A DNA stretch of 64,000 nucleotides. Source: Ctena decussata (taxonomy: Eukaryota; Mollusca; Bivalvia; Lucinida; Lucinidae). Below the pieces are notes generated by a model. It was given only the letters and a program-made list of their open reading frames with translations, ran no database searches and was not told where the DNA came from. The stretch spans positions 86,102,979 to 86,166,978 of the forward strand of contig OZ022501.1 of assembly GCA_963989385.1 (NCBI GenBank). The letters run 5' to 3'. Positions within the stretch are counted from its first letter, which is position 1; each line of letters opens with the position of its first letter. A program made the translations under genes and the position numbers. Positions 22,737 to 63,894 of the stretch are shown piece by piece.

Positions 22737-22742
22737 TTTATT
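22737..22742 (-). terminator. Candidate polyA signal AATAAA of minus-strand microexon gene
   Basis: AATAAA on the minus strand, 87 bases past the stop codon at 22829. The plus-strand paralogue has a comparable signal. Confidence 0.55.
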
Positions 22743-22828: not shown

Positions 22829-22857
22829 TTACTTCTTCTTCAAAAATTCCATCATTT
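22829..22857 (-). CDS. Terminal coding exon: MMEFLKKK and stop
   Basis: The acceptor TATATTTTTTTCAG is followed by AA, eight codons (MMEFLKKK) and TAA. Joined to the A ending the 33-bp exon, the split codon is Lys. The plus-strand paralogue ends MMYFRKN in an exon of the same design (5679-5704). Confidence 0.75.
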
Positions 22858-25800
22858 CTGAAAAAAATATAAACACACCATAATTAGCATAGTAGCGAGA
22901 TACTACTTATTTCAAAATTATCCGTTTGTATTATCTTACTACTTGTGTTGCAGCTTCATGTAGGTTTGAGCACATCACGCATGTGCGAAAGGAGAAATGT
23001 ACGCATGCAAGGGACAATAGCTAACTTGGAAATAATTTCATCTACTGTCGGTTAGTTCTTGTGTGTTGAGTTTACTCGCTCCTGTGCGTAAAGATTATCT
23101 TGTTCTGGCTACGCCTCTGTGGGTTTGGTGTAGAATTTGATGTCATTGCCCTTTTACGACAGTTTGTACAAGTTCATACCGCGCAATCCCGCAATGCCGT
23201 TTCAACGTGGAGATTAACGTTGCAACCTCCGGTAAACACACATTAAATACTTTTTTCATTTATATGTAAAACACATTTTTACAACAAGAATTCCGCGGAA
23301 TGCGATGTCTCGCCTGCCGGTGCTTTGACACAAAACAGAGCTAAGTCAGTAAACACGCTGCAAATTTTGAATGGTCAGTGAAACCTAACTTTAGGTCACG
23401 GTGCTTCATTTATGACAGTTTTCAGTTTCACTGTTCCAGATGTATGCATATCCCACATTTCATGGCTCTAACCTGTATCATTTCTAAGAAACATAACTAA
23501 ACTTGAGCCACCTGTTGCAAAGTCGAAGAACCTGAAAATGTCGGTCAACTGGAATATTGATGGTGAATTTGAGCTTTACTCTTCCAGATCTTTGCATGAT
23601 CCATGTTCCATGGCTCTAGCACATATAGGTTTTGAAAAATAGATATAAAAACGAATAATATTTAAAAAAAAGTTAGTGAATCGTAAAAACTAGGTCAACA
23701 CTCAATATCAATGTTGGGTTTGAGCTTAACTCTTCCAGATGTAAGCATGGTTCAAGTTTCATGGCTCTAGCCCTTATAATTCTTGAGAAATATAGCTTAA
23801 CCACAAATTTGACAAAAAATACAAGTCAGTGGATCGTAAAGTAGTTCAAGACTCACTACTGATGGTAGCTTTAAGCTTTACTCTCCCAGATGTATGCATG
23901 ACTCAAGTTTCATGGCTCTAGCCCTTATAAGTTCTGAGAAACATAGATAAACGCGATAACTTGCCAACAAATACAAAGTCCGTGAACCATTAAAAGTAGG
24001 TCAAGACCCAATATTGATGGTAGCTTTAAGCTTTACTCTCCCAGATGTATGCATGACCCAAGTTTCGTGGCTCTAGCCCTTATAGTTCTTCAGATAAACG
24101 TGAAAACTTGCCAAAAACAAAGTCCGTGAACCGTAAATTGTAGGTCAAGATTCAAAATTGATGTTTCTTGTCAGCTTAACTCTCCCAGATGTGTGCATAA
24201 TCCAAGTTTGATGGCTCTAGCCCTTATAGTTCTTGAGAAACAGACCTAAACTCGAAAACTCGACAAAAACTGCAAAGTCAGTGAACCATCAAATGTAAGT
24301 CAAGACTCAACATTGATAATGGCTTTTAGCTCTACTTTACCAGATGTATGCATGACCCAAGTTTTATGGCTCTAGCCCTTATATTTTCTGAGAAAATGAC
24401 CTAAACGCAAAAAATCAACAAAAGTTGTTTACGCCGAAGACGCTGCCACCGACGACGACACGGAAAAGCAGGCGAGAAAAAAACTTAAGCTTTGTATATT
24501 GGATAAACTGGTGAAGTCACCCTTTGCCAAACCGAAATTTTGGTTTGGCCTCTCTCAGGAGTTTTGTTTTTCTTTTACTTCAACAAAGTGCCGGTGCATA
24601 GTATATGCTTTATATGAGAAAAACAGCAATACTATATTTCAGCTATCCGTTACTTTTAATTTCCAGGAGGGAATGGAATTGCACATTTGAGCCGCGACAC
24701 AACAAAACCAACAATGTGGTTTTGCGCCGAGCGCAGACTCAGATAAGCCTGGAGATCCACCCAGTCTGATCAGACTCTTTGTTAAGTGCTCTAATGGTAG
24801 CTAAGGGGCTTAAGCTACCTCCATGCGGATAGCGAAGCCTCTGATCAGACTGGGCGGATGCCCAGGCTGATCTGAGTCTGCGCTGGGCGCAATCCACATT
24901 TTTGGTTTTGTCGTGTCGCGGCTCATTTATCAGACATGACGTTCAATTAACAATCAAGTGATGTGTTAGAATTAGGCCTTGACCAAAACTGGTCAATGTA
25001 GCAGTCTAATCTGGGTTGCATTTTGCTGGATACACCTCCATGGGGGAGCAGCTCCGCCATTTTCATTTTTGACTCCTTTCTTAACGTGGCCAACTCTTCT
25101 TTCTGTTAAGATCTTTTTAAGATAAAACCTTTCCAAAAAATTTGGCAAAACGTGCAGGTAGTCACATGTAGTATTCTTCAAAATTATTGAGAATAGCATT
25201 TTGGCTGTCAGTTGCCAGCCATTTGTTTTAAACAACAATCCAGTGACACTGCAATGTCATCAAAGGTAAAACCCCATGTCACATAGGCCATGACATAACA
25301 GGGCCATGCAGTAGCTAACAACATGGGTAATATTCTGTAAGATAGGGAAATAACGTCTTTAAAGGTACAATAATGAGTATTTCAGGGGCGTAACTAGGGG
25401 CAATTTCATGATACGCACAACCATGTTTTATGCTCCACTTCTTGAAAGGAAAGCTAGTATTTCAGCCACTTTGGTAATTGGTATTGAAATCTTGTCTAAT
25501 TTATAAAAATTCAGCATTCAAATATGCAGGTGCGTTTTGAAATTTTGTCAATTTTGACAAAATTTCAATACGCACTTGCGTATTTGCCGTATAAGTAGCT
25601 ACGCCCTTGTATTTTATATATGAATTTAAGATATTTCTAAATATTTATACGTAAGTAAAATAGATTATTATTATCACAAGGGTTTGTTAGAAACAAATCC
25701 GTTCTAATTTCTCAAGCTAAAGTCAGAGTACTTTTAAACTTTTACTCACTGTGGTGAAGATGTTCCATATTGCAGTCAAGATCTGTGGAATGAGAAGACA

Positions 25801-28800: not shown

Positions 28801-31800
28801 CCTGTTTTCCATCGCTTAGTGTGCAAAAGATTCAGTTACTAAGTTTACTACTCTTGAAAGGGCTAGGAAATTTTAAGAGTAACTACACTTCAGGAACTGA
28901 CTGAATCAGATCCCAAACCCTATCCCCAACATCAAAGGGAAAGATTGACAAAGACATCCCAACAAACAATAAATTACAAGTGATAAGCCGAGTCAGCAGC
29001 TCTTTTCCAAATAGATGGCAACTCAGCTATCTTAATTGAACTAAATAATTTAGACCAACAGATGGGTTACAACAGACTAAGCAAATTATACAAAAACATT
29101 TAACAATTATTTTTACCTATTTTCTATTTTTATTATAGAAGGGTTAAATTGAGAACACAATAAATTAAACAGCACCGAACATAAATCAAATGCAACCGCA
29201 ACGAAAGTACCGCCTTGGGACCGTCAGTAATAACTAGCTTCCCTGATTACAGATCCTTGTGAATAATTGTCCTTGAAAGTATCACCAGTAAACAATCCTG
29301 GTTATGACTCTGACAGTAAAAATGATTAAAATATATACAGAAGTCTTACCAAAAAATACAGGTTACTCAGTAACTGTAAAAGATACTTTGCTGAAATTTG
29401 CAAAATACATGTAACGTTAATATAATATATGAAAAATATCTACAAAAATTTCACGAAAATTGCTTTGAAAATGAAAATTTCGTAAGCAAATGAGGGCAGG
29501 CGGAGCTTAAGAGAAATCACGGAACTATAACTTACCCGCGATATACTCATCTGAAAAGAGAAAATAACAATTGTTTCAGTTGTTTTTTTTTTTTTATGAA
29601 GATATAAAACCACAGGAAGCTACCGCATCTATTTTGCTATAAAACGGAGTTTTCCTTTCTCTAAAATGACCCCAATATCTAAACCTGGGGCCGTATTCAT
29701 AAAGTCACTAAAGTTGTTGCTATGCGGTTGCTAAGGCTAAATATCTATAAAGGAGATTCCCTACAACTATGAAATTTGGTCTGGAGGAACAGTCTTTGTA
29801 AGACTGTTCGTCCAGAGCAAATTTCATAGTTGTAGGGAACCTCCTTCAAAGAAATTTAGCCTTAGCAACAGCATAGCAACCACTTAAGTCGTTTTATGAA
29901 TACGGCCCCTGCCTTACAGATGGGGATTTCCTTCAAAATAATAATGATAATAAAAAGAAAATAAAATTAAATAAAATTCTCCAAATCTAGTCTTTTTGGG
30001 ATTGGTTTGGAAGGGAAAACCCGTCTTATAATGAAGAAATATGATAATACCGTAATGCAACCCTTGAGCACACAGAACAGTAGCATATTGTATCTCAAAC
30101 TTATAATGCATTTTTCTTAGATCTTATTCAGTTGGTTAAAACAATATTTCATTCGTACATATTGATTAAATACAATACATAATGGCACACGGTCTAATTC
30201 CATAAAAACGAAGGTTTCTATTTTTGTTGATCCATAACCAAACTGGGCTTGGTGTATTAGAATTTGCAACAATTACGATTTGCATTTTCATTTACCGTAA
30301 AAAATGAACTTAAATCAGCTTCAGGTTTATACAACAGATATATGTTATACAGACGATGCAAGGTCTAAAACTCTTCGAGATTTTCCCTTCTTTTTTTCAA
30401 GTACCGTAACAGGAAAATTATATGAGAAAGTTTCCACGCCAGTTTTTTTTATCGCTCGAACATTATCCCCAAAAAGGTGTATGCTATCAGCATGCTGAAT
30501 AAAATGATACACATCACCGCCCCTTCCCCAACAGTAAAAATAATTGTAAGGTACATAAATAATACTTACGACATTGTTCGTCCCCTAAAAATAAATAATA
30601 AAATAAGAATCAGTGGTCCATATTAGAATGAGCTACAGGGATAGCTTAAGAATAATTTTCCATAAAACTACATAAAATGTATGTCGTGATCCATCATTAG
30701 ACCCGTCTGTGAAGGTGTAAGCGTCACATCCGCGTATGCTTCACAACGTTGTGAAGGCTACAGGCAGCTTTTAATAGGTTTCACATATCTCTGAAGGTTA
30801 CGGACAACACTTCGTAAACTTCACATGTAAAAACTTTAATGTGAAATTTACAAATCATATGTATGAACCTTCCGTAAATATCACATCCCTGTTGTAAAGG
30901 TTCCGGATAGCCGTCCGTAATATTCACGTGTGAGAAGATAATGGACAATTGTCAGTATGTCTTACTCATGTGTGAAGGTTAGGGACGGCTGTCCGTAATC
31001 TTCATATATGTGTGAAGATTATGGACGACTGTCTGTAAGCTCTACATGGAACCACTTACGTACTATTTTTGTATGTAGTACAGGCTGTGTGTCCTGCTCT
31101 TTGTCCGTATGTCCTAGTCTAACATGATTGAAATCAGACTTCACGCTAACAAAAGTTCTTTGTCTAAATCTTCAGAGTAAATCAGCAGACACACTAACTG
31201 CCGTCACGTAGAGCGCTTACGGTAGTGTGTATCAGGCCCCGGGCATGCACCGATGGCACTATGGTGAGTCTATAGTGGCAGTACTGGCCCCGAGGTTATA
31301 AAACTTTTTTCATGCTCAACTCAGCTGAGCATGAAATTTTCTCTGCTGATAAATATGAAAATGCCAACTAATGTTGGCATTTTCATATTCATAAACAGTG
31401 AAAATTTCATACTCAGCAAAACTGAGCATGAAAACAACTGTACTTATCAGTAATTTGCTATTTATCAGCAAGTAAAATTTCATGCTCAGCTGAGTTGAGC
31501 ATGAAAAAAGTTTTATAACCTCGGGGCCTGATTTATTTCTAGGATGTGTGGATAACGCTGTGCAATGAAAGTAAGCTTTAAGTTTTGCTTTTATTGAAGT
31601 AATTTGAGCGATTTAACGATTAAGTGTAGAGTGGAGTTTCAAGGTTCAGTCATTTACGTTCTTGGCTAGATTTATCATTTGGAAGTGAAAGACGAGATGA
31701 TCCGAAAATAGCTCCTTTTCAGAGAGACAATTTGGAAAAAAATCCAAAAGAAGGGCAATTGCATTTCAGTCCTAAGTACCGATACTACAACCATTAAGTA

Positions 31801-33880: not shown

Positions 33881-33919
<39 letters not shown>

Positions 33920-45900: not shown

Positions 45901-46321
45901 CTCACAATTTCAAAGGTTGTTTGACGTCACGTGCTGGTCAATATTTTGTGATAATCACCGACCAGTTTTACGCTTAAGTCATTGTTCTCGTGACATAACG
46001 TCTGATGTACGTAATGTTAATGGCGTAACGTCGCGAGACAACACCGGATTCCATCATAAATACAAAAAACGCATTGGAATTATCATAGATTAAAACAATT
46101 ATTGACCTTTATTTCGGCGAATATGCAGTTTTATTGACCTGCAAACAAAAAAATTACATATTCACCCCAACAAAGGTCAATAATTGTATAATATTTAATA
46201 TATATAACCTATGTTGTGACCCCTCATTAGAACCGTCTCAGTGAGACGGTTCTAATTGGTTTAAACATATTTCATTCATTTTTTAGAAATTGTTTACAAC
46301 ATACATACATACATACATACA

Positions 46322-46359
<38 letters not shown>

Positions 46360-52300: not shown

Positions 52301-55300
52301 GACTCATTGTTAAGTGCTCAAACGGTAGCTAAGGATCTAAGCTACCTCCATGCGGACAGCGAAGACTCTGATCAGACTGGGCGGATGCCCAGGCTGATCT
52401 GAGTCTGCGCTGGACGCACGACCACATTATTGGTTTTCTCGGGTCGCGACTCATATACAGTCGTGACAGTGTCTGACATTTTGAGCTTTGCAGAGGTGCA
52501 ACGTTGACATCACGAAACGTGAAATGAAAGTGACTTCATAAAATTTGCACGATATGTTAATTTGATTTCCAAGCACTGACTTACAAGTATAAATTTCAAA
52601 GCGTCGCCTGAAAAGAGTTATTCAACATTTCTAACGGCGTCTTTAATTTTCTTCATCTACACTATTTTAAGAATGTTCGCATTTCTACCTTTGATAAGAG
52701 ATGCCACGAACCAGAGTTATAAAAGTTTATCCACCAATATGTAAATTGTATCTTACCAGTGAAATGAAAACAAAATATCGGATTGGTATTGTGTTTGGTT
52801 TTGCAGTAATCCTTAGCGCTATTTCCGTCTCTGTACATCTCGAAATCTATTCTGGAAGCACTAATAAATATCAAATTGCTAAAACATAATTTCCGATTTT
52901 CGACTCCATAAGGCTCAAAATGTCAGAGCCTGTCATACTTATGTAGCCTACTGACCAAGGGCGTAGCTAGGGCCACTTACACAGTACGCACAATCATGTT
53001 TCATACTCTTTGAGGGCAATAATAGAGGTCTGTTAGGCGGTTAGTATTTAAATTATGCCCACTTAACAACATTTCAGCATGAAAATACGCAGGTGTGTGC
53101 TGAAATTTTGTCAATTTGACAAAATTTCAATACGCACCTGCTTATTTGCGTAATGGTAGCTACGCCCTTGCTGACGCTCATGAATTTAACGCTTCCAAGG
53201 CTGGAAACTCGTTTTCGGCATGTATGCGCGAAAGATATCAAACAGTGCCTTTAAAAGCGATCTCTGCAGATGATTGGCTAATATAGACGTTGGCTGTGAC
53301 AACAACGTTCGATTGTTAAAATGACGTAACTGACTTACGTCATCACGCATCGTGACGTCAGCAAGTTCGGACAAAACTGCGTTTGTATTTCATTTTCTAA
53401 AGATGCAAGAAAAATGGAAATATGGAAAACCATGGAAATGTCGTGTCTCTAATTTTAAAAGTATCAGGCACGACCAGGAGCACAAGGAAATAGCACAGTA
53501 AGCCTCGTCTGATAAATGTCGCTAACGAGGTATTCTCTATAAAGCTTTATCATATGACGTCGCATCTGAGAGTGTAATAAAGCCATGCATTAATTGCGAT
53601 AATCCACTAGTGGATTAAATATGCAAATTACGTCGTAACGTTATACGTTGACGTCCATAAAAACGTCGCTTTTACTAATGGCGAAATCGTGACGTTTTAG
53701 TGCAAATTCTGCTGATAAAATGTGATTTTAGTGTCACATGATAAATAGAATCTTGCATTCGTGCTCCTATATTATTGAATTTATTAAACTCGTTAGGGAA
53801 AACCGATAAGATGCTCGGCAAAGCCTCGCATCTTATCTTTTTCCCCAACTCGTTTAATAAATTCAATAATACATGAGCACTCATGTAAGATCCTCTATAT
53901 CTCTATTTAGAATGTCGTGCAGTCTGGCAACTGGCTGTTATCTCTGCAACTGTCCCTTATCGAAAATGTCTGAAACTCAAACCGATCTTTAAAACGTTTT
54001 TAAAATTGGATCACCTAAAACAAGTACTGTATGCTAAATGTCCTAGAAATTGAACAGTTTGCTTTCTAAATGTAGATATACTGAGTATGCGTCTAAAAGA
54101 TCAGTTGAAATGGCAATCAGTGTCGATCCTTGTCAGACTGCTCCTGTATCACATATTGCAAGCACAGTAGGCCATTGCCCTACTATAATCCAAATAAGCT
54201 GAACGCCTAGGCACTGAAAGTCACTCAGCACCATCACCCGTCCGCACAACCCCCTCCCCAACCAACCCAAGTCCCTGCCCTTCCCCCACCCTCCTTCAAG
54301 AAAAAAAAGCATACAAATGGTCTGGATGTTGACACAAGCACATCGCACCGGTCTCGAACTAACACCGTGACGGTAGAAGTTTGAAGAACACTATCTCTAT
54401 AGGGGGTGAAAACTGTTGTTGATTAGTATTTTGTCATGACGGAGTTTCCCGACAGTATCATACCTACCCGGATTTGAAGTTATTACATGTACTGGGTAAC
54501 ATGTAAAAGTAGTCCAGAAAATAACAATAAATAGAGGATCTTACATGAGTGCTCATGTATTATTGAATTTATTAAACGAGTTGGGGAAAACGATAAGATG
54601 CGAGGCTATGCCGAGCATCTTATCGTTTTCCCCAACGAGTTTAATAAATTCAATAATACATTAGCACGAATGCAAGATTCTATTTATCATATGACACTAA
54701 AATCGCACTTTATTAGCAAATTTTGCACTGAAACGTCTCGATTTTGCCAGTAGAAAACGCGACGTTTTATGGACGTCAACGTATAACGTTACGACGTAAT
54801 TTGCATATTTAATCCACTAGTGGATTATCGTTTTTAATGCATGGCTTTATTACACTCTCAGAAGCGACGTCATATGATAACATGTGTTATGATAAAACTC
54901 ACCTGAATAACGTTACAAAATCTTACATACCTTTCACGAATATATCTGAAACAGAAAAACATAAGAAAACTATAATAAGAAAAGTCAGTGCCACGACACA
55001 AGACCTCATTGTCCACATATAAACAAAGTTTGAAGTCTCTAGCTTGAATAATTTCTGAGACAGTTTTGGCACAAATTTTGAATATCAACATATGAAATAG
55101 CAATAGAAAAAATAAAAAATGAGACCAATGAAGCTGATTCTGAATCCCACGATACAATCACTCATTCTCCATATGTATAACATGTTTGAAGGTCCTAGCT
55201 TCTAGAGCGGCTCAGAAAAGTGTGGCACAAATTTACCTTGAAAGGACAGAAAAACTGGACGAATAAAGGGAAGAATAAAAGCAATGATTCCGATTCTCAA

Positions 55301-58300
55301 TCCCACACCACAACAACTCATTGTCCATATACAAACCAAGTTTGAAGATTCTAACTTGAATAGTTCTGATATAAAACTGTGACACAAATTTTCAATATTA
55401 ACATGTGAAATAGTGATAGAAAGAAAAATGGATAAAAAAATAGAAAATAAAATCAATGAGCCTGATTCTCACGATTCAATTACTCATTCTCCATATGTAT
55501 ATATTTAGTCTGAATGTCCTAGCTTTCACAGTTCCTGAGAAAAGTGTGACACAAATTTACCTTCAAAAGTCAGAAAAATGGATAAATAAATGGAAGAATA
55601 GGAGCAATGAGCCCGATTCTCAATCCCACAACACAACGACTTATTGTCTATAGGTACAACGTGTTTAAAGATTCTAACTTCAATAGTTCCTGAGAAAACT
55701 GTGACACAAATTTTCACAAAAATATCTTACGGAATTACAGACCAAATCCTGTATAGCCCCACTTTTTCAAAGCGGGGCTATAGGTAACGAACTATGCTAA
55801 AAACTAAGCCGTGATCTGTAACTGTATGCCAATTATATGGATCCTAGCATAAGCGATTCTCCAAATATTTTATTCAAAAGTTTTTTTTCTATCTAAAATG
55901 CCTATGTCCTTAAAAGGGGAATGACTAAACGAACTTAAGAGCCGTCGACGTGAATAGGGGTATACATTTTATGGGGAAGAAACTTTGCCATAATCACCAT
56001 GCCTTCTTTATTGATTAGGGTCAGTTGTCAAAACAACGAATTTGTTTCTAAGGCAGCAAAGTCTTGACGTCTAAGAGTAGATACCAATTTGGAAGAGCTA
56101 AGTTCTTGACAGAAGCAAGAATGAAATCACAATAGTGGATATCCATTGTGAAAATGTATTTACATCTCGTAGCTTTCAATTTATTTATTTAATTTTTGTT
56201 TTGTTAAAAAAAAAGAAACAAAAAAGAAAAAAATCCTGAAATACACGCTTTAGTTTGCAGTTAGGTACATGTACAATAGCTAAACAACAACTTACGCAAG
56301 AGAAATTCGAGCACCTCCCCTCGAGACATAAGATGCTTGTCACCATGCATATGAGGAACATGATAACCGTGTCCCGTGTAGCCACTGTCGTATCCCGAGC
56401 CAGAGCCGTATCCCGAGCCATAGCCGCTGCCGTATCCCGAGCTATAGCCACTGCCGTATCCCGAGCTATAGCCACTGCCGTGTCCAGCGTAATATCCCGT
56501 CCCATACATATACGAGTCAGAGCCAGATCCCATGCCGTATGAGCTGTATCCGTATGAGCCGGATCCTGAAGAGCCGTATCCGTATGAGCTGGATCCAGAT
56601 GACATGCCATACATTCTAGCCTTGACACCATTCTGCTTTTTTACAGGCTGCTTGTCCATCTCTTGTAGTGTTGAGACTGCAATAAAAAAACATTGCCCGT
56701 CCCTGCAGACACAAGCCGTTGAGTCAACATTGAATCAACGTTAATTCAATGTCTTGACGTCGGGCCATAGTTGATTGAATGTTGGTTCTGCGTTGTGTGC
56801 CCGATTGCTTTAAATTGAAATATTTACATTTATCATATACTTTCACTAGTATTGCCCTTGATACTAGATATTTGGCCCACCCATTATAGCCCTGTCAGAA
56901 AGCGCTGTCCAGCCCTGTTGTCCAAAAGTCAGGTGTAGGGCCGAGATCACCTCACGTGCAGGGCGGGACAGAAATATCTCAGCCCTTGTATCGGCCCTCA
57001 ATTTTGGCGCTAACGTTAAGTATTGCCGCCGACGTCATCAAAACAATTCAGCGAGCTAAAAGACGTCTGCCGCCATGTTTTATTGCCGCACGTGGACTGG
57101 CTGAAGGTGGACTCGCAGAGACTTTGTAGTTTGTTCTAAAACCAGAAAACCATTCTCGGTAAGTTTTATTTTGTAATCTGAGCCATTTACGATTAAAATA
57201 CCAAAAAAGTGTGATGTGTTTTCTTCATTTAGTGCTCAGTTGTACTTCCAGCTGAAAGAAAAATGGCGGCACGGCTCATCATCCACGATCTTCCGACTCG
57301 AATATCTTCATGTTATTTCAGCCAATAAAAAGAAAAAAAAAAACAGACAAATTTTATTGGAACAAAAATATTGCAGTATTTCTTACAAAAGTTCAATTTC
57401 TATAAGAAAGTATATGATAAAAAGATCATCACACGGTTGTTTTGATCCCATCCCTGATCTCAGCCCTCGGACCGTATCAACCCTCGCCCTTCGGGCTCGG
57501 GCCGATACGGTCAACTCGGGCTGAGATCAGGGCTGAGATCAAAACAACCGTGTAATAATCTCTATGTACCGTCGTCCGCAAATTACATAGATGAACCTAT
57601 ACTGGGCTGACGATTTACTTAGATGAACCTGTACTGGGCTGACGATCTTCATACATCCATAAACATCACTCGTTCACGCGACGTCACGCATAGGCGACGC
57701 CACGGATAATTCAAGTAGTTGATTGGCCGACGTAACGTTCGATATAGGGAGAACTAGTGGTGGGCTACGTATGTATAATGTCATCATACCTTTGTACTCT
57801 TACGTCATTAAGTCGTAACTCAGGGTTCAAAGCGATGTTGTGTACATTCTTACGATGCCAAATGCACGGTGCATAACCATATCGGACGCTATCTGTGAAA
57901 ATCTGCGTTACTTGACTCTATCTGTGATTGCTACGGACTATATTTGTTACTTGCCATGGACGCTTCGGCGATTCAGTCGAAGAAAAAGGGACAAAACGTG
58001 TAAGTTCTGGGTTTCATGGTTTCCACGGAACACATACCTTATTTTCCCTAATATTTTCGTCGATATTATTCAGCTAGCGATGTTCAGTGCTTGTCATCAG
58101 TGAAATCAAATGCAGCGTGATAGTGCAGGAGCGTACATGGCCCATGAAAACAAGAAAAACTCAGTGTTTTTATTTGTAGGTAATGAATTTTGTCCTTAAT
58201 TTACGAAGATAATTAAGTTCTCGATAATTTACACATGTCGTTAGGTGCCTTAATAAAATCTTTACGTTAATATCGATGTTTAAAGGACACCACCCAATAT

Positions 58301-61300: not shown

Positions 61301-63894
61301 CACTTTCTCCGGAATATTTAGGTTGAATATGATGGCAGCCATTTTGAATTGGCCAAGAAGAAGGATATTTACATGTATAACAAGATAATTGGTTGGTTGT
61401 TTTGGGTTTAGCGGCCCGAGAGAAAAAATGTCCAAACAACCCCACCCGCATCTACTGCAAGCACAATGGGCCCTCACTCTACTATTACCCCCACCCGCAT
61501 CTACTGCAAGCACAGTGGGCTCTTACCCTACTATCATCCAACTCAGTATGACGCCCTGGCACTGGAAGTTATACGCAGCACCATCGCGCCATCCGACCGC
61601 CCCTATGATAAGATGAACTAGCGCGTTGAATATCAAACGGTGACAAAATATAGTGCCATATTTTTTTAAAATTTTAACAAAAAAAATCGTTGAATTTATG
61701 CAATAACAGCCATGAAACATTTGTTTCCAATGCATTAACGTTTGCCAGGTCCCTCGGCAGATGTTGAAAACCTCGGCTTTCGGACTAATTTTCCAACATC
61801 TCCTTCGGAACCATACAAATGTTAATGAGAAGGCCGAGGTTTTCAACCTATCTTTCGGGACCTGGCAACTTGACGTTAAGCGTGAAAAACCATGTTTGAT
61901 CCCTATAGCTGTTGAACATCCTACCATATAACTATTCCTCGTCCCTTCCTTGACGTTATACAAGGGCGTAGCTGCCTTTACGCAAATACACATGTGCGTA
62001 TTGAAATTGACATGACAATATGAAATATCTTGGGGTCTTAACCCTTATATTTCATGTCAAGCCGCCTAAAGCCTGACTGTGCGTATCAAGTTATCACCTC
62101 TAGCTACGCCCCTGTTATATTAGTCAAAGTTCACGAATAAGTAACAAAATTGATGTAGAGACATAGTATAAATATGATAAATTTCATTTTTTTCGGAAGT
62201 TCATGGAAATATGAAAGAAATGGGTTCCTTGTAAGTTCGGGCGTCACTTACTTTGCACGTATTCCATTGCGGCCATACTTCCATGAACATCCGAAAAATG
62301 ACATTTGAGCCGCGACGCAAGAAAACCAACAAAGTGGTTGTGCGCCCAGCGCAGACTCAGATCAGCCTGGGCATCCGCCCAGTCTGATCAGAGTCTTCGC
62401 TGTCCACATAGAGGTAGCTTAGACCCTTAGCTACCCTTTGAGCACTTAATGAAGAGTGTGGTCAAACTTGGCGGATGCTCAGGCTGATATGAGTCTGCGC
62501 TGGGCGCACAACCACATTGTTGGTTTTCTCGCGTCGCGGCTCATTTATTTCTTAAATGAAAATGCATACGCTCTTCCCCAGTCATGAAACAATCCACGAC
62601 ATGTCTCCAGTTTATACCTCGTGCAGGTCTTATCTGGGGCCGTATTCATAAAGGTACTTAAGTCGTTGCTATGCGCTTGCTAAGGCTAAATATCTATAAA
62701 GGAGATTACCTACAACTATGAAATTTGGTCTGGAGGAACAGTCTTTGTAAGACTGTTCCTCCAGAGCAAATTTCATAGTTGTAGGGAATCTCCTTCAAAG
62801 AAATTTAGCCTTAGCAACAGCATAGCAACCACTTAAGTTCTTTTATGAATACGGCCCCAGGGATTCTAGTTTCTGCTCTTCCCCAGTGAAGAGCGTTCTG
62901 CTAAAAGTGACCAGTATATTACTTCTTTGCTGACATTTCATGCCATTTACTAGGCAACGGGCATATTAGGTGGCCCTAAAAGCGTCTTGTGCATGAATTT
63001 AAAATCATCTTACCTGATCGGGCTCAATGTCAATCAGTTAATGCGCGGGCAGCATATGGCCCGCACGGACAAGAAATAGAAGTAAAGGTGGTCTACATGG
63101 CGAAACATGTCGCATGGCACACGTGTCATGCAAAACCATGTTGCAAGACACAAATCTGTTGCATGCAACATGTCTAATCGTCTAAAATGATTGCATGGCA
63201 AACGTGTCATGCAACATGTGAGCCGTGACACGAGAAAACAAACAAAATTTGGGCGCCAAGCGCACACTCAGATTAGACTGGACATCGACTCAGTCCGATC
63301 AGAGTCTTCGCTATGCTCTCAGAAGGTAGCTGAGGTTCGAAGCTACCTTCATGCGGACAGTTAAGATTCTGATCAGACTGGGCGGATGCCCAGGCTGATC
63401 TGAGTCTGCACTGGGCGCACAACCACTCTGTTGGTTTTCTCGTGTCACGGCTCATGTGTCATGTGAAATGGACTCTTAACCATAGATTACGCAACAGTAG
63501 GAATACTGAGTAAATGCTAGTTAAAGTCTTTATTTGACTTATTTCATTATACCGTTGACTCTTTCTTTTCAAAGACACCTGTCAAAACGAGTCTGCATTT
63601 TTCAAAAATAATTGTCTCCATGGAGCAGCCAATTAAACTTTAAATAGTTTCAATGATGTATATAAACTTTATTCTTACGTAGTCTCTTCCACAGCATTTC
63701 TGAAATATAAATGGGTAGAAAATGTGAGGCCCACCTCGAGCAAATAGAGAGAGAGAGAGAGAGAATGGGTGGGTGGGTGCTGTTGGGGGTGGGGAGGCTT
63801 ATGCCAATTTCATTACCTCTGCTGTCGATCAAGCCAGTCAGCTTCTTTATCATGCAAAAGTAGCTGTTGACCGAGACAATCGACATCAGTATTA
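22829..63894 (-). CDS. Microexon gene, all introns phase 1 (5'-incomplete gene model)
   Basis: Spliced model on the minus strand with exons at 63817-63894, 63679-63699, 56296-56676, 54931-54945, 51968-52030, 50619-50708, 47113-47178, 45709-45729, 43735-43782, (42526-42561), 37785-37880, 30570-30584, 29536-29550, 25750-25782 and 22829-22857. Internal exons are multiples of three, run two bases + codons + one base, and have GT-AG borders. Split codons at the junctions make E, L, H, E, V, D, E, V, A, W, H, D and K, never a stop. The product inside the window is about 320 residues: a hydrophobic/basic start, a Gly/Tyr/Ser low-complexity domain, then an acidic, Trp- and Tyr-containing tail ending MMEFLKKK. 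I recognise no known domain. The first exon, start codon and any signal peptide lie beyond 64000. In architecture, though not in sequence, it resembles the micro-exon genes described in schistosomes. Transcripts could skip any exon without a frameshift. The main risk is that one or two exons are mis-called. Confidence 0.72.
23390..24430. repeat. ~150-bp tandem array in the last intron
   Basis: About seven diverged units, each with GGTCAAGACTCAATATTGATGG, CTTTACTCTCCCAGATGTATG, CAAGTTTCATGGCTCTAGCC and GAGAAACATAGATAAACGC (segments given separately). No exon signals inside. Confidence 0.85.
24688..24925. mobile_element. GAGCCGCGAC palindromic MITE, copy 3
   Basis: Starts TGAGCCGCGACACAACAAAA and ends GTGTCGCGGCTCA. 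Full length. Confidence 0.9.
25384..25608. mobile_element. AGGGGCGTAACTAG / TAGCTACGCCCTT MITE, copy A
   Basis: The ends are inverted (AGGGGCGTAACTAGGGGCAA and GTAGCTACGCCCTT). A near-terminal palindrome sits around AATTTTGTCAATTTTGACAAAATT. Further copies at 32559, 51159, 52958 and 61962. Confidence 0.85.
25750..25782 (-). CDS. 33-bp exon of minus gene: LDCNMEHLHH
   Basis: Acceptor TTCTCATTCCACAG, donor CACA|GTGAGTAAA. Phase 1 gives LDCNMEHLHH after the split Asp codon. It is nearly identical in DNA to the plus-strand exon 1363-1395, including the CCACAG acceptor, while flanking introns share only the satellite type. Confidence 0.8.
25800..26660 (-). repeat. Reversed 24-bp-type satellite, split by an unrelated segment
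   Basis: On the minus strand, 25800-25910 and 26490-26660 read as repeats containing CACACTTCATCTCATCG and TTTCACACTTCGTTTT, matching the array at 250-1325. The middle (about 25910-26480) is different. It holds three loosely repeated segments with GTCTGGACTCG / GGGCTATAG and TGCGTATCATAC, apparently an insertion or second minisatellite. Confidence 0.65.
26714..26871 (-). repeat. tRNA-derived SINE with 13-bp target duplication
   Basis: The minus strand starts GGGAGCGGCTGTAGCGTAGT with box A (TAGCGTAGTGG) and box B (GGTTCGATCCC), and ends with GGTGGGACGTTAAACCCGAG, a tail I recall from molluscan SINEs. CCTCAAATAAAGA occurs on both sides (26701-26713 and 26872-26884), giving a direct target-site duplication and exact boundaries. 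Confidence 0.88.
26960..28885 (+). pseudogene. Decayed non-LTR retrotransposon ORF2 (Jockey/CR1-like)
   Basis: Frame-broken fragments in order: the endonuclease-RT linker (FVTWISPEIRRKIRRRNRTH, 26990-27210), fingers (GDIPKVWFLANIY, 27570), the LLEHVVYSNSMAHEYKLLSD region ending RQHAFRRG (27690-27770), motif B (SGVPQGTVLGPTLF, 28020-28065), a motif C remnant (LSADDF, 28110), and the C-terminal EKLQKRASRFATG ... LIMLYKGL block (28510-28675). Many stops and shifts. It sits within an intron of the minus gene and ends against a reversed Penelope-like tail. The clade is an inference from motif style. Confidence 0.8.
28888..29236 (-). repeat. Solo tail of the Penelope-like element, reversed
   Basis: The reverse complement matches 17345-17705, including CCTTGGGACCGTCAGTAATAA and the GGATAGGGTTTGG region. 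No RT block is attached. Confidence 0.8.
29536..29550 (-). CDS. 15-bp microexon: EYIA
   Basis: Acceptor TTATTTTCTCTTTTCAG, exon ATGAGTATATCGCGG, donor GTAAGTTATAG. Phase 1 gives split His, EYIA, split Asp. Both splice sites are strong, which is the main support for so short an exon. Confidence 0.7.
29687..29909. mobile_element. GGGGCCGTATTCATAAA foldback MITE, copy A
   Basis: Almost perfect palindrome of about 223 bp centred on CAGTCTTTGTAAGACTG, with ends GGGGCCGTATTCATAAA and TTTATGAATACGGCCCC. Copy B is at 62636-62858. Confidence 0.9.
30570..30584 (-). CDS. 15-bp microexon: DEQC
   Basis: Acceptor TTATTTATTTTTAG, exon GGGACGAACAATGTC, donor GTAAGTATT. Phase 1: the split codon T+GG gives Trp, then DEQC, then C+AT gives His into the EYIA exon. 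Confidence 0.68.
30690..31080. repeat. Array of self-complementary GTGAAGGTTACGGAC units
   Basis: Irregular repeats of TGTGAAGGTTACGGACG followed by CTGTCCGTAATCTTCACATG-type segments. Each unit can fold on itself. It resembles the GTGAAGCTTACACC block at 33115-33175. Confidence 0.65.
31286..31528. mobile_element. GGCCCCGAGGTTATAAAAC foldback MITE
   Basis: Long inverted ends (GGCCCCGAGGTTATAAAACT left, mirrored at 31510-31528) followed by CATGCTCAACTCAGCTGAGC palindromes. The centre carries another palindrome (TGCCAACTAATGTTGGCA). Confidence 0.88.
32080..32465 (+). repeat. Solo, diverged tail of the Penelope-like element
   Basis: Shares CCAGTAAAACTAGTTTTAGCC, CTGACCGTTCCAAGGCG, CACCTGTTTGTGAAAGAGCTG and GAGAGTGGAATGTGGGATTTG-like segments with 17290-17705, at clearly lower identity than 28888-29236. 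Confidence 0.6.
32559..32783. mobile_element. AGGGCGTAGCTAC MITE, copy B
   Basis: Reverse orientation of copy A at 25384-25608. The ends AAGGGCGTAGCTACC and GTTACGCCCCTGG are inverted. Confidence 0.85.
32784..34297. other. Intron stretch with minor repeats
   Basis: Contains a short AATAACTCCTGATTA duplicate (32880-32915), a segment at 33195-33330 that matches 46435-46530 (ACAACATATG..TTTCGTTTGAGAAAT, CCTCAAAACCC), and a (GA)n tract at 33885-33916. No exon found. Confidence 0.45.
33885..33916. repeat. (GA)n microsatellite
   Basis: Sixteen GA units. Reading it as protein gives the Ser/Leu ORFs on the minus strand. Confidence 0.95.
34298..35190. mobile_element. CATCAGGTCTAGGACAGTAT TIR element with nested repeat
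   Basis: The left end CATCAGGTCTAGGACAGTAT matches the reverse complement of the right end (TATCAGGTCTTGGAAAGTAT) with few differences. Subterminal TTTAAAGACAGTC palindromes are present. About 34855-35115 is a member of the GAGGATCTTACATGAGTG family also found at 53550 and 54530. Confidence 0.6.
35332..36553. mobile_element. 1.22 kb TIR element with CpG-dense arms
   Basis: Termini CAGTACCGGCAGCGCGAAAC and its near-exact mirror (CAGTACCGGCAGCGCAAAAC), with TA on each side (35330-35331 and 36554-36555). Arms of about 300 bases are packed with AACGCG / CGCGTTT motifs in an AT-rich neighbourhood. The centre is AT-rich and includes a 66-bp direct duplication (36089-36222) with GACTCTGTTTATAAATCC. 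No transposase ORF. The TA target suggests Tc1/mariner-type mobility. Confidence 0.8.
36554..37784. other. Intron stretch with small palindromes
   Basis: Has a TTGAATCAACGTTGATTCAA repeat at 36635-36685 (related to 56706-56805), a CGGACGCCGCATTCTGCACTG fragment at 36860 related to 22270, and a hairpin around GTGGCTCATAATGAGCCAC (37270-37300). No exon seen. Confidence 0.45.
37785..37880 (-). CDS. 96-bp exon of minus gene: YRQGGHEYG..AYASD
   Basis: Acceptor ATGTTATATTTTAG, donor GATT|GTAAGTATT. Phase 1 gives YRQGGHEYGVLEELAM ... KQKAEAYASD, 31 whole codons, with an Ala codon split across the upstream junction. A competing AG seven bases downstream (TTACAG) would break the phase-1 frame, so the upstream AG is chosen. 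Confidence 0.75.
37881..38562. other. Intron stretch without recognised feature
   Basis: No exon or repeat recognised; short TGACGTCA-like motifs near 38340-38410. Confidence 0.4.
38563..39030. mobile_element. TATGTGACAGTG TIR element, copy 1
   Basis: Starts TATGTGACAGTGCCTGAGAT and ends with the inverted counterpart (TATGTGACAGTGTTTGGCAT), TA-flanked. Copy 2 at 52462-52940 is more decayed. The interior has no long ORF. Confidence 0.8.
39088..39222. repeat. Long hairpin with GAGGCTTGCCGAG loop
   Basis: About 60-base arms (GGTCTCCGATGCAGACAGG..GGTGTGTCGGAAAC) around CGAGGCTTGCCGAG. The same loop occurs in a different hairpin at 44820-44940. Confidence 0.85.
39230..41744. other. Intron stretch without recognised exon
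   Basis: AT-rich, with scattered TGACGT motifs (39460-39490). It contains diverged 'CTGATCAG'-type segments at 41260-41650 that may be an old MITE. No phase-1 exon with good borders was found; one splice-like segment at 40630-40690 was rejected. Confidence 0.4.
42526..42561 (-). CDS. Possible 36-bp exon: IKQSQRSGTIT
   Basis: Donor ACTG|GTAAGCTAG is good. The acceptor CCTCAGACAG has a weak pyrimidine tract. Phase 1 stays open (IKQSQRSGTIT) and length is a multiple of three, so it can be included or skipped without a shift. It lies between two transposon copies in apparently unique sequence. Weaker than the other exons. Confidence 0.4.
42690..42815. repeat. Long hairpin ending in GGTGTCCAGTGGGGATA
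   Basis: Arms GGTGTCCAGTGGGGATAGGG / TTATCCCCACTGGGCACC with a loop near ACTCGACTGAGCCTCGGTTC. Confidence 0.85.
43530..43665. repeat. Long hairpin, CATAGTTACCAAACGACC arms
   Basis: GTCATAGTTACCAAACGACC and its reverse complement are separated by a few bases at 43590-43635, with weaker extension outward (TGTTACGAAACG / TTTCGTAACA). Confidence 0.85.
43735..43782 (-). CDS. 48-bp exon of minus gene: FEEYEVDALVQLADS
   Basis: Acceptor GTTTTTACTTCAG, donor AGCG|GTAAGTGATC. Phase 1 gives FEEYEVDALVQLADS; the two other frames contain stops, so the phase is fixed. Confidence 0.78.
44123..44360. mobile_element. GAGCCGCGAC palindromic MITE, copy 4
   Basis: Starts TGAGCCGCGACACGAGAAAA, ends TCGTGTCGCGGCTCA, TA on both sides. 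The best full-length consensus copy in the window. Confidence 0.92.
44820..45325. mobile_element. Hairpin (GAGGCTTGCCGAG loop) MITE relative
   Basis: The hairpin at 44820-44940 (GTGTGAGGTGTGGATAGAAA arms) is followed by sequence matching 41950-42300 in reverse (GCGCCGCTTTCAACG, CCAACGTCACTTGACG, CCAATGCATTGACAGC). Confidence 0.65.
45439..45530. mobile_element. GAGCCGCGAC MITE, truncated copy 5
   Basis: Starts TGAGCCGCGACACGAGAAAA, then breaks off after GGTCAGACTCTTCGCTAAAC. It is followed by a TGACGTCGAATCAC / GCCTGCTGGG repeat (45530-45625). Confidence 0.8.
45709..45729 (-). CDS. 21-bp microexon: CTWNTH
   Basis: Acceptor CTGTATTTTCAG, donor CACG|GTAAGTATAT. Phase 1 gives CTWNTH between split Glu and Val codons. 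It has the same length and phase as the 63679 exon (MLWKRL), which shares the central TGGAA. Confidence 0.68.
45780..46680. other. Intron stretch with small hairpin repeats
   Basis: A short MITE-like inverted repeat (ATTATTGACCTTT at 46100, mirrored at 46170-46188), a perfect hairpin AGAACCGTCTCAGTGAGACGG (46230-46255), an (ACAT)n tract at 46300-46351, and a segment at 46435-46530 matching 33195-33330. Confidence 0.55.
46300..46351. repeat. (ACAT)n microsatellite
   Basis: About thirteen uninterrupted ATAC units. Confidence 0.95.
46718..47050. mobile_element. 333-bp snapback palindrome built of GCTTCCTGC / GACTGTCCGCG units
   Basis: The left end CACAGGGTATAATCGATTCC is mirrored by the right end GGAATCGATTATACCCTGTG. 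Each arm is about four imperfect units of GCTTCCTGCCGAGACTGTCC. The fold centre is near GAGGCTCTCGGCAGG. A half copy lies at 48386-48594. ORFs on both strands read the same repeat and are not genes. Confidence 0.85.
47113..47178 (-). CDS. 66-bp exon of minus gene: TQDEVFWKMEQ..
   Basis: Acceptor TATATATTTCAG, donor AACG|GTAAGTTAC. Phase 1 gives TQDEVFWKMEQ followed by SFRKLTSKVN; both other frames contain stops. The DNA GGAAGCTGACT near its end recurs in-frame in the exon at 63817, suggesting exon duplication. Confidence 0.78.
47242..47479. mobile_element. GAGCCGCGAC palindromic MITE, copy 6
   Basis: Full-length copy, ends TGAGCCGCGACGCGAG and CTCGTGTCGCGGCTCA. Confidence 0.9.
47850..47998. 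repeat. Long hairpin, GAGTAATAATTCACT arms
   Basis: AGCTCTAGCAGTGACTTGTT..GAGTAATAATTCACT is mirrored by AGTGAATTATTACTC..AGTGAATAGTTG..CTAGAGCT (approximate arms), with a CACGCGCGAGTG loop region. Confidence 0.8.
48386..48594. mobile_element. Half copy of the GCTTCCTGC snapback element
   Basis: Contains GACTGTCCGCGTGACTCTGC, a folded GAGCCTCGGCAGGAAGCAG and ends GCTTATACCCTGTG, matching the right arm of 46718-47050. Confidence 0.75.
48690..48800. repeat. TGACGTC-rich short repeat
   Basis: Clustered TGACGTC / GACGTCA motifs ending TTTGCCCGCTGGG. Similar blocks at 43880-43965 and 45530-45625. Confidence 0.6.
48860..49599. mobile_element. 740-bp TIR element filled with GTGATATCAC palindromes
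   Basis: TIR TGAAGTGCCGTTTCACTATA left, mirrored at 49572-49599, with TA target duplication (48858-48859 and 49600-49601). The interior holds dozens of GATATCAC / TTGTGATATC half-sites alternating with AATCG spacers, in both orientations. No coding potential. Confidence 0.82.
49643..50315. mobile_element. Foldback element with ~215-bp arms
   Basis: The left arm (CACAGTATCCGAACTAC .. CTTGTAC, 49643-49860) is the reverse complement of 50098-50315 at high identity, with a unique loop of about 235 bases. A small perfect hairpin (ATAATTTCTCTACCGG and mirror) sits at 50329-50356. Both arms include AAAGAGGTAAGTTTAATAT, which mimics a splice donor. Confidence 0.82.
50420..50600 (-). repeat. Very diverged solo tail of the Penelope-like element
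   Basis: Shares the order CAATCAGATCCCATATCCC, AAATTGACAAAAGTTCG, GAGCAGCTCTTTCCTAAATA with the reversed tail at 28888-29236. It lies 19 bases from the 50619 exon donor. Confidence 0.5.
50619..50708 (-). CDS. 90-bp exon of minus gene: IEEAAWKLYEED..
   Basis: Acceptor TTCTTGTTTACAG, donor TACG|GTTAGTATC. Only phase 1 is open: IEEAAWKLYEEDRCAGE followed by LNLEDELMVDEY. Strongly acidic. Confidence 0.78.
51159..51369. mobile_element. AGGGCGTAGCTAC MITE, copy C
   Basis: Ends AGGGCGTAGCTACC and TAGCTACGCCCCTG, with the GTCAAATTGAC palindrome near the left end. Confidence 0.85.
51559..51789. mobile_element. GAGCCGCGAC palindromic MITE, copy 7 (diverged)
   Basis: Starts TAAGCCGCGACACGACAAAA, ends GTCGGGTCGCAGCTCA; slightly shorter than consensus. 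Confidence 0.85.
51968..52030 (-). CDS. 63-bp exon of minus gene: ..PDWLEMRSNDCPKQG
   Basis: The chosen acceptor is ATTTCGTCATTAG after a T-rich stretch; the donor is GGTG|GTAAACATT (or CAAG|GTGGTA, also phase 1). Phase 1 gives PSINIPDWLEM then RSNDCPKQG. The same frame stays open upstream to 52172, where another AG (TGTGATTCAG) exists, but that would need a phase-2 upstream exon, so the shorter exon fits the gene better. Borders are less certain than for neighbouring exons. Confidence 0.6.
52216..52453. mobile_element. GAGCCGCGAC palindromic MITE, copy 8
   Basis: Full length with TA target duplication (GTATA|TGAGCCGCG and CTCA|TATAC). Confidence 0.9.
52462..52940. mobile_element. GTGACAGTG TIR element, copy 2
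   Basis: Matches 38563-39030 along its length (AACGTTGACATCACGAAACG, GCCACGAACCAGAGTTATAA, CGAAATCTATTCTGGAAGCA) with more point changes. Confidence 0.75.
52958..53170. mobile_element. AGGGCGTAGCTAG MITE, copy D
   Basis: Ends AAGGGCGTAGCTAGGG and GGTAGCTACGCCCTTG, inverted. Confidence 0.85.
53550..53895 (-). mobile_element. GAGGATCTTACATGAGTG repeat, reversed member of inverted pair
   Basis: The reverse complement matches 54530-54890 over about 350 bases (ATCCACTAGTGGAT, TACGTTGACGTCCATAAAA, GATAAGATGCTCGGCAAAGC). Contains a hairpin around the GCATCTTATC arms. Confidence 0.78.
54530..54890 (+). mobile_element. GAGGATCTTACATGAGTG repeat, forward member of inverted pair
   Basis: Starts AGAGGATCTTACATGAGTGC, has hairpin arms GAAAACGATAAGATGCGAGGC / GAGCATCTTATCGTTTTCCC (loop TATGCC), and ends near TTACACTCTCAGAAGCGACG. 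A third, older copy lies at 34855-35115. Confidence 0.78.
54931..54945 (-). CDS. 15-bp microexon: IFVK
   Basis: Acceptor TTATGTTTTTCTGTTTCAG, exon ATATATTCGTGAAAG, donor GTATGTAAG. Phase 1 gives split His, IFVK, split Glu. Phase 2 (YIRE) is also open, so the frame comes from its neighbours. Confidence 0.62.
54990..55715. repeat. ~175-bp tandem array with two alternating unit types
   Basis: Four units, each with CTCATTGTCCATAT, GTTTGAAG..CTAGCTTG, GTGGCACAAATTT and AATGAGCCTGATTCTCAATCC. Units 1 and 3 resemble each other more (TATTAACATGTGAAATAG), as do 2 and 4 (ACCTTCAAAGGACAG-like). Confidence 0.8.
55716..56295. other. Intron stretch with a diverged GAGTAGACC-family repeat
   Basis: 56000-56165 carries GGGTCAGTTGTCAAAACAAC, TAAGAGTAGATACC and GACAGAAGCAAGAATG, weakly like 7085-7260. 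A small hairpin (AGCCCCACTTT / AAAGCGGGGCT) sits at 55757-55781. Confidence 0.5.
56296..56676 (-). CDS. 381-bp Gly/Tyr/Ser low-complexity exon of minus gene
   Basis: Acceptor ATGTTTTTTTATTGCAG, donor TTGC|GTAAGTTGT. Only phase 1 is open from the acceptor: STLQEMDKQPVKKQNGVKAR, then about 80 residues dominated by GYGSG / SYGYSS repeats, then HVPHMHGDKHLMSRGEVLEF. The repeats are built of CCGTATCCCGAGC-type DNA units on the plus strand. Such domains occur in mollusc secreted, adhesive and shell-associated proteins and in RNA-binding prion-like domains, so the role cannot be fixed. It is the only large exon of the gene. Confidence 0.75.
56706..56805. repeat. TTGAATCAACGTT short repeat
   Basis: GTTGAGTCAACATTGAATCAACG.. 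style repeat ending GCGTTGTGTGCCC, related to 36605-36710. Split here as motifs: TTGAATCAACGTT, TCAATGTCTTGACG. Confidence 0.6.
56806..57864. other. Intron stretch with a hairpin at 57430-57555
   Basis: The hairpin arms are CACACGGTTGTTTTGATCCC and mirror, with inner GATCTCAGCCCTCGG arms and a CTCGCCCTTCGGGCTCGGG loop. Around 56890-57000 are related phrases (AGGGCCGAGATCACC, ATCTCAGCCC), so 56890-57560 may be one element. A donor-like CTCG|GTAAGTTTT at 57160 on the plus strand has no supporting exon. Confidence 0.55.
57956..58626 (+). CDS. Possible two-exon ORF within the CACGGTG element (76 aa)
   Basis: Exon 1, 57956-57999: ATG in good context (TTGCCATGG), MDASAIQSKKKGQN, donor ACGT|GTAAGTTCT. 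Exon 2, 58440-58626: acceptor TTATCTATTTTCATCCAG, starting in the matching phase and open for 61 codons to TGA, including NLWLHQPKRRRLSPEFE, with a basic cluster like a nuclear localisation signal. AATAAA follows at about 58672. No catalytic domain is seen. It could be the N-terminal remnant of a transposon protein whose body was deleted, or a chance open frame. Confidence 0.4.
58740..59945 (-). pseudogene. RTE-type LINE reverse transcriptase fragment
   Basis: On the minus strand: ILNRLKPQAEEIIAEEQAGF then RAGRSTTDQIFSF (59935-59800), a broken palm region, NLRFVDDIDALAEEEQELEA (catalytic FADD read here as FVDD, about 59520) through ISAERTKLMTNSA, and a C-terminal EWTGMDFASSARAAEDGTRW block near 58800-58860. 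It is 5'-truncated, frame-broken and interrupted by a C21 run (59542-59562). I recognise this protein from RTE/BovB-like elements in marine animals. Confidence 0.82.
59542..59562. repeat. Poly-C run
   Basis: About 21 C within the LINE fragment; a polyglycine artefact arises in the minus-strand ORF. Confidence 0.9.
60711..61734. other. Intron stretch without recognised exon
   Basis: Holds a short direct duplicate ACCCCCACCCGCATCTACTGCA / CAAGCACAATGGGC at 61436-61525 (two about 54-base units; motifs given in pieces) and T-rich sequence. No exon seen. Confidence 0.4.
61735..61875. repeat. Long hairpin with GCCAGGTCCC arms
   Basis: AACGTTTGCCAGGTCCCTCGG and GTTGAAAACCTCGGC segments are mirrored by GCCGAGGTTTTCAACC and GGGACCTGGCAACTTGACGTT (ends approximate). 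Confidence 0.75.
61962..62113. mobile_element. AGGGCGTAGCTGCC MITE, copy E (internally deleted)
   Basis: Ends AAGGGCGTAGCTGCC and TAGCTACGCCCCTG; only about 150 bp. Confidence 0.8.
62306..62543. mobile_element. GAGCCGCGAC palindromic MITE, copy 9
   Basis: Full length, ends TGAGCCGCGACGCAAGAAAA and CTCGCGTCGCGGCTCA. Confidence 0.9.
62636..62858. mobile_element. GGGGCCGTATTCATAAA foldback MITE, copy B
   Basis: Very similar to 29687-29909, with the same centre (CAGTCTTTGTAAGACTG). Perfect terminal mirror images. Confidence 0.92.
63219..63454. mobile_element. GAGCCGCGAC palindromic MITE, copy 10
   Basis: Starts TGAGCCGTGACACGAGAAAA, ends CTCGTGTCACGGCTCA: matching compensatory changes at both ends. 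Preceded by CATGCAAC / GTCATGCAACATG short repeats (63105-63218). Confidence 0.9.
63679..63699 (-). CDS. 21-bp microexon: MLWKRL
   Basis: Acceptor CCATTTATATTTCAG, exon of 21 bases, donor CTAC|GTAAGAATA. Phase 1 gives split Glu, MLWKRL, split Leu. Phase 2 (NAVEET) is also open; phase 1 is preferred because of the shared frame with the paralogous exon pair 47113/45709. Confidence 0.6.
63746..63764. repeat. (GA)n microsatellite
   Basis: Short GA run followed by GGGTGGGTGGGTG, within the intron between the two rightmost exons. Confidence 0.9.
63817..63894 (-). CDS. 78-bp exon of minus gene: ILMSIVSVNSYF..
   Basis: Acceptor GATCTTACTACAG, donor AGAG|GTAATGAAA. Phase 1 gives ILMSIVSVNSYFCM followed by IKKLTGLIDSR. 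A phase-2 reading (NTDVDCLGQQLLL..) is also open. AAGAAGCTGACTGG near its 3' end matches the 47113 exon in the phase-1 frame (KKLT / RKLT), favouring phase 1. First exon visible in the window; upstream exons lie beyond 64000. Confidence 0.62.

Follow-up and report, generated by a model that had tools for sequence, protein, structure and literature searches.

Predicted exon structure of gene 1

The window (the whole stretch of 64,000 nucleotides analysed here, at 86102979-86166978 in a 1.66-Gb assembly) contains, on its minus strand, most of a predicted gene that we call gene 1. The model has 14 exons and extends from 69835 to 22829 in window coordinates, with E1 and E2 located beyond the window edge. 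When joined, E1 to E14 are open to the stop and give a product of 312 amino acids. The minus strand from 63894 to 22829 was mostly inspected by eye (52501-55799 was scanned by script only). For the splice sites we used a generic metazoan scoring matrix set from general knowledge; the resulting pairs of scores are given below in bits.

E1 (69835-69770) is signal-peptide-like (MGRLIFVAVVVLMLAGIVVSLP) and ends in a phase-0 donor with a consensus splice site. E2 (67009-66967), also with consensus splice sites, is 43 bp long and leads from phase 0 to phase 1. E3 to E13 are all phase 1-1. E3 (63679-63699; 21 bp; 7.6/5.7) encodes MLWKRL, and E4 (56296-56676; 381 bp) encodes a basic linker and a Gly/Ser/Tyr repeat block, after which, still within this exon, the tail domain begins. 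The three smallest exons of the gene, each of 15 bp, are E5 (54931-54945; IFVK; 11.6/10.0), E11 (30570-30584; 10.8/6.4), which carries a conserved Cys, and E12 (29536-29550; 12.6/11.0). Between E5 and E11 are located E6 (50619-50708; 90 bp), with a conserved Cys, E7 (47113-47178; 66 bp), E8 (45709-45729; 21 bp; 10.1/10.7), E9 (43735-43782; 48 bp) and E10 (37785-37880; 96 bp), and a Trp codon is split at the E10/E11 junction. E13 (25750-25782; 33 bp; 9.5/6.5) encodes LDCNMEHLHH with a conserved Cys. The coding part of the terminal exon E14 (22829-22857; acceptor 11.1) ends in TAA, and a polyadenylation-like AATAAA is located at 22737-22742 on the same strand. The splice scan also gave small exon candidates at 60623-60594, 55254-55237 and 54293-54267.

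The earlier note had also described 14 exons, with the gene starting at 63894, and had named 11 of them. Nine of the named exons stand, and so do three further ones, which we reconstructed as 63699-63679, 54945-54931 and 45729-45709, on the basis of their splice scores and their counterparts in a paralogue (gene 2, below). The two others had to be given up. In the 224 kb searched, the proposed first exon, 63894-63817 (stretch 63916-63817), has four further matches with E values no higher than 1e-3 and lengths of 43-92 bp, and was taken as a repeat copy; the predicted start is instead at 69835-69770, outside the window. The exon at 52030-51968 is unsupported: its splice sites are weak (2.8 and 4.8 bits), and none of the pieces listed for gene 2 corresponds to it. 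A 101-aa ORF at 51867-52172 (minus strand), which contains 52030-51968 and has no Pfam family above the cut-off, is unexplained.

Introns of gene 1 are phase 1 in 12 of 13 cases rather than in all, as had been proposed; the exception is intron 1 (phase 0), which came with the discovery of E1 and E2 outside the window. Five exons had been named as open in one frame and in the same phase, and each is indeed open in phase 1 only (56676-56296, 52030-51968, 50708-50619, 47178-47113 and 43782-43735), with 37880-37785 as a sixth. Eleven of the 12 internal exons are symmetric. E2 (43 bp) is not, and cannot be skipped in frame, so the claim that every internal exon is skippable applies to all but this one. 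Likewise, junctions had been described as never making a stop, which is true of 77 of the 78 pairs tested among E2-E14; E10 joined to E14 makes one.

Paralogues and exon chains

We detected gene 2 as a copy of E13 at 1363-1395 on the plus strand when the gene 1 model was compared with the window by tblastn. Gene 2 is located on the plus strand, tail-to-tail with gene 1 and mostly to the left of the window, where 60 kb were examined. Counterparts were found for all 13 exons from E2 to E14, in the same order; nine have identical lengths and the others differ by multiples of 3. The E2 counterpart is again 43 bp, and those of E3-E13 are 21, 675 (in two pieces), 15, 90, 66, 18, 48, 93, 15, 15 and 33 bp. 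The E3 counterpart encodes KLLKRL and lies in a 44-bp DNA match (79.5%, E 0.002), and the 675-bp counterpart of E4 carries a different repeat. E5 was paired with a 15-bp exon encoding VVWP by place, length and splice sites, with zero residue identity, and E12 was paired in the same way, hardly by residues. The E13 counterpart is, like E13 itself, phase 1-1. In its core 27 of 27 bases are identical; in the flanks identity is 24/34 over columns 20-60 upstream and 21/55 over columns 10-70 downstream. The coding part of the terminal exon of gene 2 (5679-5704, plus strand), found by DNA comparison, encodes MMYFRKN followed by a stop.

The phase-1 scan of gene 2 gave 21 pieces, of which 12 are the counterparts of gene 1 exons in order and nine have no counterpart. 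For eight exons we estimated from 60 shuffles how many exons of the same length and score would fall in the expected interval by chance; the expectation was 0.0000 for seven of them and 0.0097 for the other. With phase left free on gene 2, the chain did not keep to one phase at its start or beyond -8720, so the evidence for the 3' part of gene 2 comes from its comparison with gene 1. The aligned tails of the two products are 40% identical and have four cysteines in common; E8, E11 and E13 each carry one that is kept in gene 2. Over 107 codons from the nine equal-length exons (E4, E8, E10 and E14 left out), pN was 0.33 and pS 0.52 (dN 0.44, dS 0.89; Fisher p 0.011 on rounded counts). A genome-wide search of the 1.66-Gb assembly with the gene 2 tail gave six places, all within genes 1 and 2 of this cluster.

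Hydrophobic ATG exons with a phase-0 donor are located upstream of all three genes (gene 3 is described below), and, judged by their hydropathy, each may encode a signal peptide. The candidate first exon of gene 2 (MMAPLKLLAVALMLFGVVLSAP; phase-0 donor) is located at -33789 on the plus strand, 93 bp downstream of a TATAAAT; it was picked from a scan requiring a phase-0 donor, in which it accounts for two of six rows with nested starts. The TATAAAT is part of a promoter-like block with two copies outside the window, at 73779-73642 (minus strand) and -33945 to -33801 (plus strand), 73% identical over 145 bp. In gene 1 the homologous TATAAAT is at 73719 and the homologous exon starts at 73627, but both start codons and the donor have been lost. 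Conversely, gene 2 has the flank of the intact first exon of gene 1 (46 bp, 78%), but no exon like 69835-69770 was found there and a dispersed repeat occupies the place. Judged from these comparisons, the two genes appear to have lost opposite members of a pair of alternative first exons.

The dead first exon near the promoter could also mean that gene 1 is a decaying copy, the rest of which is drifting, and that gene 2 is the working gene. We consider this improbable, since the 14-exon model of gene 1 is open to the stop with consensus splice sites, the hydrophobic ATG exon at 69835 is intact and has a phase-0 donor, and pN is lower than pS.

A third, diverged gene (gene 3) likely lies to the right of gene 1, on the plus strand. 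Its predicted first exon (MGRLTIALVLFVGIGIAAAFP; phase-0 donor) starts at 104958 and is followed by an exon of 58 bp leading from phase 0 to phase 1 and by phase-1 exons of 72, 336 (GQGK-rich), 54, 36, 27, 18, 51, 108, 15 and 15 bp. The model uses 7 of 12 and 4 of 13 pieces from two lists of phase-1 pieces, with piece 121752 in both. By order and residues, the last five exons (RCTQKP, FDVADAV..., YNSGMEE..., TPFC and KAAE) are likely the equivalents of E8-E12, with likely lengths of 18, 51, 108, 15 and 15 bp. The Trp codon split before E11 is kept in genes 1 and 2 and likely in gene 3 (DWDEQC, KWTEDC and TWTPFC). An automatic three-way alignment backed this Trp and the E11 Cys; it placed the other Cys of gene 3 opposite the E6 Cys and not that of E8, and the exon assignments of gene 3 are therefore those made by eye. 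E13 and E14 of gene 3 were not found to the right of the window, and a piece at 159730-159762 was rejected as a match in length only.

A rival reading takes the exons as a chance set of splice-like sites picked out by the earlier note from 41 kb of intergenic sequence. In its favour are the failure of two named pieces (63894 and 52030) and the presence in the best exon chain of three members derived from repeats (59671-59426, 58930-58796 and 47053-46721; repeats judged by eye). Shuffle controls and the colinear paralogue stand against it. The phase-1 chain on the minus strand over 64000-22001 scored 113.9 bits with a penalty of 18 bits, or about 75 bits by subtraction of the three repeat-derived members. 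In 60 block-wise dinucleotide shuffles the phase-1 chain scored 7.1 bits on average and 27.4 at most. Over the same interval, chains in phases 0 and 2 of this strand reached 49.2 and 48.2 bits, and those in phases 0, 1 and 2 of the plus strand 17.8, 6.2 and 10.5 bits. We therefore regard a chance origin as very improbable.

The phase-1 chain includes the nine exons E4-E12. E3 and E13 score under the penalty, so both rest on the paralogue; for E3 alone, phase 2 outscores phase 1 (16.7 vs 13.3). When phase was left free, the chain contained eight consecutive (1,1) pieces from 50708 to 29536 (50708, 47178, the repeat 47053-46721, 45729, 43782, 37880, 30584 and 29550), with mixed phases at both ends, another donor for E4, and E5 omitted. 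Exons of 9-40 bp scoring at least 19 bits numbered 6, 6 and 3 in phases 0, 1 and 2 of the minus strand and 1, 0 and 1 on the plus strand, with a mean of 0.14 for phase 1 in 100 shuffles. The microexon excess is thus strand-specific and not phase-specific, because pieces so short are open in several phases; for exons of 15-21 bp the frame gives no discrimination of phase.

Predicted protein and comparable systems

In the predicted layout of the gene 1 product, a signal peptide is followed by the Gly/Ser/Tyr repeat block and then by a tail that is acidic (pI 4.59), likely helical and carries the four cysteines. In its repeat block G accounts for 35% of the residues, S for 31% and Y for 22%, and a tandem unit of 24 bp (8 aa) lies at 56398-56485. 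The block of gene 2 contains 27% G together with A, D, Y, M and T, in units of about 11 aa (by eye), and that of gene 3 is 32% G and 21% Q. In models of single exons from single sequences, E10 formed a helix over residues 11-31 (mean pLDDT 86) and E6 a weak helix (mean pLDDT 67).

No recognisable family had been reported for the gene, and our searches agree. No Pfam family reached its cut-off; the best one, with E 0.024, scored 14.7 bits where 20.8 were required. No PDB entry matched gene 1 at E 1, the best match with a two-gene profile having E 0.26. The protein database was searched through shared 5-residue words, with queries that covered gene 1 from E3 onward; its sources include animals, so that a blank result carries meaning. 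None of the 177 candidates for the C-terminal query (without E5) was at E 10 or better. The whole model gave 101 matches at E 10 or better when the 7995 candidates sharing most words were scored, and the 14 inspected match by Gly-rich low complexity. Among the fetched proteins, the linker and tail alone found nothing below E 0.36. The N-terminal query consisted of the rejected first exon and true residues of E3-E4, to which a segment of a transposon ORF was attached as positive control. Of the 1375 candidates for this combined query, 1364 were at E 10 or better (best 120 listed); when the N-terminal part by itself was compared with the fetched proteins, no E value was below 1.3. The exact pattern of the E13 core had no match in the prokaryote genome collection, and tRNA and Rfam scans of the window found nothing.

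Schistosome micro-exon genes (MEGs) had been proposed as the parallel, which is apt for the architecture. As described in the parts of the MEG accounts used here, those genes have, like gene 1, many symmetric small exons, long introns and membership of a gene family, and their signal peptide may have an equivalent in the hydrophobic first exons predicted here (PMC4015677, PMC10526429). The parallel is weaker in quantity: internal exons of up to 36 bp make up 12.8% of the gene 1 CDS and those of up to 51 bp 22.5%, while microexons reach up to 75% of the CDS in MEGs (PMC4015677). With the limit of 81 bp used for MEG microexons (PMC10526429), the share in gene 1 is about 30% (by hand). The hydrophobic/aromatic motif that follows the signal peptide in MEGs (PMC10526429) is absent, by eye, from the 312-aa model. 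Gene 1 also differs in keeping Cys and Trp in its microexons and in having a Gly-rich repeat block. No MEG appeared in the database searches made here; the likeness is one of architecture. Among the titles and abstract openings listed in the literature searches, we found no micro-exon gene of a bivalve.

According to the part of PMC4897951 used here, the molluscan mantle secretes fast-changing proteins with repetitive low-complexity domains (RLCDs). Genes 1 and 2 resemble these mantle and shell matrix proteins in predicted secretion and in Gly-rich repeats of about 8 and about 11 residues that change between paralogues (PMC4897951). RLCD units are about 10 residues long, and repeat domains with units of similar size were found in both genes; rapid change of the repeat between relatives is seen as three compositions in three predicted paralogues. 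A tail with four cysteines built from microexons, as in gene 1, is without mention in the part of that source used here, and the word 'exon' occurs 0 times in its main text (PMC4897951).

Small symmetric phase-1 exons are also a feature of tropoelastin-type genes, which encode an extracellular matrix protein. Gene 1 resembles them in this feature, and differs in having, by eye, no alternating hydrophobic and cross-link exons.

On balance we favour the reading that gene 1 is a 14-exon gene with a same-order paralogue and that its 312-aa protein is likely secreted and likely part of an extracellular matrix; we think this probable, with room for doubt. Exon order and sizes, splice sites, phase 1 from intron 2 onward, the paralogue, the changed repeat chemistry and the four common cysteines can be read from the DNA. 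Secretion, disulfides and a matrix role are what these features suggest for the gene 1 product. The Gly/Ser/Tyr block would self-associate or have its tyrosines cross-linked. The constant domain, with a role in anchoring or assembly, would be the acidic tail encoded by the microexons, which is likely helical and probably has two disulfides closing it. Duplication would alter the repeat chemistry (GSY, MGGYD or GQGK) while the tail is kept.

Since MEGs vary by exon skipping, according to the portion of PMC4015677 used here, gene 1 could similarly produce a repertoire of secreted variants by combinatorial skipping, for instance in immunity or surface interaction. The 11 symmetric internal exons and the single stop among 78 junctions would permit it. 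We consider it unlikely, given that E8, E11 and E13 each have a Cys kept in gene 2, that the split Trp codon is kept at E10/E11, that 9 of 13 exon lengths are identical though the tails of the paralogues are 40% identical, and that exons of up to 36 bp form so small a part of the CDS. Conservation of Cys and Trp at exons of 15-33 bp makes free skipping less likely, as far as comparison of the paralogues can tell. In the matrix-protein reading the microexons are likely mostly constitutive, with in-frame skipping possible for 11 of the 12 internal exons.

What would be new here, judged by analogy, is a secreted gene built from microexons, as in schistosomes, with repeat blocks of molluscan type. 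In a bolder form, which we put forward tentatively and hold to be somewhat doubtful, these genes may be a micro-exon gene family that a mollusc has evolved independently of flatworms. A disulfide-closed helical domain would be encoded in instalments down to five residues in one splice phase, and each paralogue would combine it with a different glycine-rich repeat chemistry; the two nearest copies would have lost opposite first exons. Because all pieces from E3 to E13 share a phase, repeat blocks and tail segments could be swapped without breaking the frame, by recombination or splicing. If true, this would be a tractable gene family outside flatworms with a conserved domain made from symmetric microexons. 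Its neighbouring copies separate conserved features (exon sizes, phase, Cys and Trp) from those free to change (repeat chemistry and first exon), with a bearing on how fast-changing secreted structural proteins retain a constant domain. Such a family may be poorly annotated, because gene predictors tend to miss such exons.

Repeats and mobile elements

Several copies of a dispersed element, about 245 bp long and by eye with inverted ends, are present: on the minus strand at 24930-24687, 44361-44113, 47479-47233, 52457-52216, 62566-62297 and 63455-63219 and on the plus strand at 7423-7675 and 12863-13142. In gene 2, a further copy occupies the place expected for a second first exon. The stretch 46721-47053 is inverted and internally repeated (units of about 30 and about 63 bp) and reads as a long phase-1 pseudo-exon; a similar stretch is present in intron 2 of gene 2. 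At 59914-58744 (minus strand) we recognised by eye a LINE-type reverse-transcriptase-like sequence with poly-G, which yields false long exons in the chain.

A repeat pair on opposite strands, 92% identical over 369 bp, has one copy within the E12-E13 intron of gene 1 (29236-28869, minus strand) and the other between genes 1 and 2 (17341-17709, plus strand). The sequence at 29911-29684 (minus strand) is part of a genome-wide inverted repeat, with at least 82 matches listed, including the query, at 84-98% identity on both strands when 40 of 2694 candidates were scored.

Pieces of a transposon reverse-transcriptase-like ORF are located at 15108-16972 (plus strand). Two of them had no Pfam match at E 0.01, and one segment has many database relatives. 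Two matches of this segment, among the best 120 of 1375 candidates, are labelled Candidatus Thiodiazotropha. These bacteria are symbionts of lucinid clams, and the matches so labelled are likely host DNA in the records, which would agree with the bivalve origin assumed in the earlier note.
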